Below are positions 23,652-23,987 of a stretch of 64,000 bases of DNA, piece by piece. The first letter of the stretch is position 1; every line of letters starts with the position of its first letter. The stretch covers positions 124,001 through 188,000 of the forward strand of contig NC_015680.1 in NCBI RefSeq assembly GCF_000215995.1, in the 5' to 3' direction. This DNA comes from Pyrococcus yayanosii CH1 (GTDB taxonomy: Archaea > Methanobacteriota_B > Thermococci > Thermococcales > Thermococcaceae). Under the pieces are notes generated by a model. It was not told where the DNA came from and did no database searches. It saw nothing but the letters and a program-made list of their open reading frames with translations. The position numbers and the translations under genes are program-made.

Positions 23652-23696
23652 AAATAACCACCGGTTATTAAACGTCGGCCAGGTTAATTAACTTTT

Positions 23697-23848
23697 TGAT
23701 GTGGGCCGGCAACAGAGACCCACCGGTCACCGCTCCCGGGGGCGGATGCACCGGCCCTGTGGGCTCGGCGTGAGCACACCCCGCTCATCGAACCCGGAAC
23801 CTTGCGGGGGCGGGTGGACCGAGCCCCTGCGAGGAAATGTACCCTCGC
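23697..23848 (-). ncRNA. candidate double-hairpin H/ACA guide RNA
   Basis: On the - strand two long GC-rich hairpins are each followed directly by ACA. Hairpin 1 closes with GGGCTCGG (23826-23819) and CCGAGCCC (23768-23761), then ACA (23760-23758), and contains an inner CCCCGC/GCGGGG stem with GAUGA in the apical loop as a possible L7Ae K-turn. Hairpin 2 closes with GGGCCGG (23757-23751) and CCGGCCC (23709-23703), then ACA (23702-23700). A third short hairpin GCGAGG/CCTCGC (23848-23829) leads. AT-rich promoter elements (GTTTTAAG, CTATATAAT) lie just upstream at 23864-23890. Such RNAs direct pseudouridylation with Cbf5, Nop10, L7Ae and Gar1. The pocket geometry of hairpin 2 is not canonical. 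Confidence 0.62.
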
Positions 23849-23929
23849 TGTCGGCGATTGAGAATTATATAGTGGAACTTAAAACTCTTGTGGAAACCCT
23901 TATAATGCCCTTGGAAAGACCTAGCCTTC

Positions 23930-23987
23930 GGCGGATGATGTGCCTTGCCCAGCCTGAGACGTGATGAGGTCGGTATTAGCTGACGCC
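23930..23987 (+). ncRNA. C/D box guide sRNA
   Basis: All four boxes are present in order: C box ATGATGT (23935-23941, one mismatch), D' box CTGA (23954-23957), C' box GTGATGA (23961-23967, perfect) and D box CTGA (23980-23983, perfect). Both guide regions are exactly 12 bases (GCCTTGCCCAGC and GGTCGGTATTAG), the D'-C' spacer is three bases, and GGCG/CGCC closes the terminal stem. Archaeal C/D sRNAs guide 2'-O-methylation by fibrillarin; the methylated base pairs with the fifth base upstream of D or D'. TTATAAT at about 23900 is a suitable promoter. Confidence 0.85.

Follow-up and report, generated by a model that had tools for sequence, protein, structure and literature searches.

HgcF, a known box H/ACA guide RNA, in Pyrococcus yayanosii, and its conserved 5' leader as a candidate 23S rRNA-binding element

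HgcF is already known as an Rfam family of the Thermococcaceae whose targets have been tested experimentally. In P. abyssi, where the RNA is called Pab35, transcription and modification at two targets have been reported on the basis of RNA-seq, RT-CMCT and activity in vitro; RNA-seq puts the transcript at 318,227-410, and the published targets are written Pa35.1-L2672 and Pa35.2-L2549 (PMC4652768). Two further RNAs, HgcG/Pab40 (RF00064) and HgcE/Pab105 (RF00060), are likewise thermococcal multi-hairpin box H/ACA guides aimed at rRNA. A more distant comparison is offered by eukaryotic snR30/U17, an H/ACA RNA whose pairing with rRNA departs from the usual guide mode and which is believed to serve as an rRNA chaperone (PMC7601244). 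snR30 guides no modification, and it is the base of the 3' pocket that pairs with 18S rRNA; an archaeal homologue has not been identified (PMC7991803).

We compared with these RNAs a locus of Pyrococcus yayanosii CH1, lying in a window of 64,000 nucleotides (the whole stretch of DNA analysed; positions count from its first letter). A preliminary description of this DNA had proposed a box H/ACA RNA with two ACA-closed hairpins on the minus strand, and named a covariance-model search as a way to check it. That search bore out the proposal: RF00058, HgcF, matched over 168 of 168 model positions with 194.1 bits, where the cut-off is 70, and with E = 1.8e-46 in a search of the whole window. In both identity and guide function, the RNA in the window is almost certainly the HgcF/Pab35 box H/ACA guide with two uridine targets in 23S rRNA. 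Its extent had been drawn too short, with a 5' end at 23848; the RNA starts at 23855, which adds a 7-nt leader and a small third hairpin on the 5' side. The features of the RNA and of the region upstream of it are:

23689-23855, minus strand: HgcF (Pab35) box H/ACA guide RNA, matching the whole RF00058 model (positions 1-168)
23843-23855, minus strand: 5' leader GCCGACAGCGAGG, a perfect 13-nt complement of 23S 2603-2615, with a putative function
23829-23848, minus strand: 5' mini-hairpin GCGAGGG...UCCUCGC, with no ANA box after it; its 5' strand is also part of the rRNA-complementary leader
23761-23826, minus strand: hairpin 1 (Pa35.1), with an 8-bp lower stem, a pocket, a 9-bp upper stem and a K-turn
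23761-23768 with 23819-23826, minus strand: perfect lower stem of hairpin 1, GGGCTCGG/CCGAGCCC
23769-23775, minus strand: 3' guide strand of hairpin 1, GCUCACG, forming 7 bp with 23S beside U2685 (equivalent to the published P. abyssi target L2672)
23758-23760, minus strand: ACA box of hairpin 1, with 94% column identity and AUA in several orthologs
23703-23757, minus strand: hairpin 2 (Pa35.2), with a 7-bp lower stem, a pocket, an upper stem with one bulge and a K-loop, GA-GCGGU-GA
23703-23709 with 23751-23757, minus strand: perfect lower stem of hairpin 2, GGGCCGG/CCGGCCC
23710-23717, minus strand: 3' guide strand of hairpin 2, CUCUGUUG, forming 8 bp with 23S beside U2562 (equivalent to the published P. 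abyssi target L2549)
23700-23702, minus strand: ACA box of hairpin 2, unchanged in every aligned ortholog
23878-23884, minus strand: box-A-like TTTTAAG, some 27 nt before the start of the RNA, with a counterpart at the corresponding position in relatives
23931-23986, plus strand: box C/D sRNA (RF00095, 56.7 bits), divergent, about 75 nt from HgcF and just upstream of a Cas4-like gene

The two-hairpin architecture had been read correctly: on the minus strand two perfect closing stems of 7-8 bp are each followed directly by ACA, one ACA (23758-23760) separates the hairpins, and the plus strand carries TGT where the boxes would be. The inner part of hairpin 2 had been called unusual for the family, a remark that does not hold, because this part has the usual make-up, an upper stem bearing a standard K-loop (GA...UGA). 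Counted on the folds, the upper stem lies 14 nt from the ACA in hairpin 1 and 15 nt in hairpin 2, and 14-16 nt is expected in box H/ACA RNAs (PMC4652768). Read from the sequence, the predicted L7Ae motif of hairpin 1 is a K-turn-like AA/AUGA, which is a canonical GA/UGA in several Thermococcus-like relatives, and that of hairpin 2 is the K-loop.

Thermodynamics could suggest that this is no RNA gene at all and simply a G+C-rich intergenic palindrome that arose by chance, as the fold of the HgcF region is only moderately better than that of shuffled sequences (z -2.08). We give this explanation practically no credence; it is already refuted by the 194-bit family match, by family-wide conservation that includes double changes, and by the published transcription of orthologs. 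Across 28 distinct aligned orthologs, standard pairs fill 95% of cells, and none of 500 shuffles reached the covariation score. In seven pairs both partners have changed; five of these pairs belong to hairpin 1 and two to the upper stem of hairpin 2. Both stems of hairpin 1 are 100% paired in the orthologs. In distant relatives the lower stems are replaced as wholes, GGGCCGG/CCGGCCC by GGGCTTGC/GCAAGCCC and GGGCTCGG/CCGAGCCC by GGGCCCCG/CGGGGCCC. Two observations that would have spoken against the RNA, transcription from the plus strand only and loss of the stems and ACA boxes in orthologs, had been named beforehand, and neither was made: stems and ACA boxes persist across the orthologs, and the orthologous transcript is present in P. 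abyssi RNA-seq (PMC4652768).

A profile search of 61 genomes found HgcF in 35 of the 37 from the same family, the two lacking it being 75-78% complete assemblies, and in none of the 24 searched outside the Thermococcaceae. An apparent second copy in one genome (G025, 36.8 bits) was rejected as HgcE cross-matching. In the genome taken to be that of P. abyssi the match spans 318,231-398 and so overlaps the published Pab35 transcript. The window RNA resembles this reference over its full length, in both hairpins, both ACA boxes, the guides, the 23S targets and the 5' leader, and differs from it in small sequence changes only.

Archaeal promoters had been placed just upstream of the RNA; the one conserved across relatives is the TTTTAAG box. 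TATATAA also occurs between this box and the RNA; we rejected it as the main promoter, since it is TTTTAAG that recurs in relatives. The neighbours of HgcF in the window are common to P. abyssi and other Pyrococcus: a gene for an HTH-CBS protein and one for an FAD enzyme on one side, and the divergent C/D RNA and the Cas4-like gene on the other. All the Pyrococcus loci scanned retain this pairing of C/D and H/ACA genes, except one that is cut by a contig end. The D' guide of the RF00095 sRNA has a 12-nt perfect match to the organism's own 16S rRNA at 455-466. Beyond the Cas4-like gene, some Pyrococcus also carry an sR52 C/D RNA (loci L006 234-292, L003 235-293 and L014 209-267), which was not found at the equivalent place in the window's own genome.

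For the targets, both pockets were scanned blindly for complementarity to the organism's own 16S and 23S rRNA. The bases assigned beforehand to the pocket of hairpin 1, TCCACC and TGCTCACG, proved correct, the 3' strand being the one that pairs beside U2685. U2685 and U2562 had the longest unbroken 3'-guide pairing in the scan, yet on total score this simple measure did not rank them first in every case, and it listed other uridines as well, including 23S 1549, 1475 and 1411. We single out these two because they agree with the published sites, which explain both pockets. Their P. abyssi equivalents fall at 2698 and 2575 of the 23S extract, which after subtraction of 26 gives the published L2672 and L2549. 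L2672 corresponds to E. coli position 2580 and L2549 to 2457, both of which are pseudouridines in E. coli as well. A published oddity, the single 3' pair at Pa35.2-L2549, was reproduced here. In one genome (G002) the 5' guide of hairpin 2 has drifted to UCCCCUC with the 3' guide retained, which fits the 3' duplex being dispensable at L2549. In another (G013) the hairpin 2 guide is one base short (CUCGUUG versus CUCUGUUG), through sequencing error or real loss, and the L2549 pairing would be shortened.

Given the family membership and the published P. abyssi tests, HgcF would assemble with L7Ae, Cbf5, Nop10 and Gar1 into an RNP in which the hairpin 1 pocket would capture 23S around U2685 and the hairpin 2 pocket 23S around U2562. 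Cbf5 would then convert each captured uridine to pseudouridine.

The 5' leader is a third part of HgcF with an apparent rRNA partner. Its complement in the organism's own 23S, CCUCGCUGUCGGC, lies between the two guided uridines in the peptidyl-transferase ring, at 2498-2510 in E. coli numbering, and the 13-mer occurs exactly in the whole genome only at HgcF and at the 23S site. No rRNA complement elsewhere in HgcF exceeds 9 nt, and the longest in HgcG and HgcE are 9 and 10 nt. Composition-matched 13-mers matched rRNA at a rate of 2.6e-4. With the whole RNA as the control, a 13-nt rRNA match arose in 22 of 500 dinucleotide shuffles and in 10 of 400 random stretches of the window, so that the match alone is only moderately improbable and the argument rests on conservation and position. 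The duplex of leader and rRNA is predicted to be more stable than the leader domain by itself, with -29.1 kcal/mol versus -16.9 at 37 C and -8.1 versus -1.9 at 90 C.

Among testable orthologs, 34 of 34 keep 13 of 13 leader-23S pairs, some of them G-U. Three substitutions occur, C to U at position 9, A to G at position 11 and A to G at position 7, and each leaves a G-U pair with the rRNA. The unpaired part of the leader is invariant apart from one A-to-G change that retains G-U pairing, whereas the bases upstream and the opposite strand of the mini-hairpin vary. Mean conservation is 1.00 (rounded) for the first seven bases, 0.55 for the bases just upstream and 0.81 for the opposite mini-hairpin strand; for the two 3' guides it is 0.98 and 0.95. 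The leader is thus as conserved as the guides. On the rRNA side the site is invariant in each of the five Thermococcaceae 23S genes read, so true covariation between rRNA and leader cannot be seen. The ring reads CUCGCUGUCGGC in each of these five genes, with C at the organism's own 23S position 2608. Another archaeon has A at the equivalent position; the HgcF leader carries the G that matches the Thermococcaceae C. This position is that of E. coli A2503, where the near-universal sequence has A.

These observations bear on two readings of the leader, in both of which the identity of HgcF stands. By our assessment the chances are evenly balanced that the leader, judged from its sequence, is a third conserved rRNA-binding element, which would make the RNP an anchored modifier and an rRNA chaperone holding the catalytic centre open during assembly. 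We rate as possible, at a little short of even, that the match to 23S is coincidental and that the leader owes its retention to a role of the mini-hairpin in RNA stability, processing or protein binding. A 13-nt match in a G+C-rich RNA of 168 nt is, by the shuffle and window controls, not extremely rare; the mini-hairpin forms in every ortholog folded, and one change from C-G to U-A within it is compensated. Hairpin formation could alone account for part of the conservation of the leader. Coincidence sits less easily with the 7-8 bases outside the hairpin, which are as invariant as the guides, with a mini-hairpin whose 3' strand varies while its 5' strand is constant, and with the placing of the matched site between the guided uridines. 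The leader also has no counterpart in the control H/ACA RNAs HgcG and HgcE, which differ from HgcF in their guides: neither has a 5' end conserved in this way, and their rRNA complements do not go beyond 9-10 nt.

The leader and mini-hairpin might instead form a third H/ACA-like guide for a flanking pseudouridine, that is, P. abyssi 2585, 2588 or 2603. The leader-23S duplex is flanked by 2585 and 2588 on one side and by 2603 on the other; it starts exactly two bases 3' of U2588, like the pairing of an H/ACA 5' guide, and its other end touches U2603. The motif name Pab35.3 appears in the P. abyssi work (PMC4652768), and pseudouridine 2585 (T. kodakarensis 2589) depends on an RNA, together with L7Ae, Cbf5, Nop10 and Gar1, and its guide has not yet been found (PMC6138745). 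We nevertheless consider a third guide very improbable. The mini-hairpin is not followed by an ANA box, no upper stem would remain once the leader pairs, and relatives beyond Pyrococcus do not conserve the candidate 3' guide GCAAG. Pab40.1 already serves 2588, and when six P. abyssi H/ACA RNPs were assayed in vitro, pseudouridine 2585 was formed by none of them (PMC6138745). An H/ACA-like guide of the Pyrobaculum type in the 5' domain was rejected too, there being neither a K-turn signature nor an ANA box at the mini-hairpin. HgcF is not claimed here as the guide for pseudouridine 2585.

Returning to the leader as an rRNA-binding element, it would form a 13-bp duplex with positions 2603-2615 of 23S while the rRNA is still immature, its 7-8 unpaired nucleotides serving as a toehold and its own mini-hairpin being displaced. 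The RNP would thereby be anchored between its two target sites, and closure of the ring would be delayed until modification is done. Because the mature ribosome buries this stretch of 23S, any such pairing could only be temporary. A resemblance to snR30/U17 would lie in rRNA pairing outside the guide mode that matters for ribosome formation; what HgcF shows towards it is the conserved 13-nt complementarity. The HgcF leader differs in facing 23S and in forming the 5' tail of an RNA that itself actively guides modification. The complementarity is not mentioned in the Pab35 work (PMC4652768), and a literature search found no description of leader-23S pairing, which is weak evidence, as its coverage was partial and the primary 2008 Pab35 work lay outside it. 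If real, the leader matters, and the site that it would occupy adjoins P. abyssi pseudouridine 2585, the modification whose guide is yet to be found.
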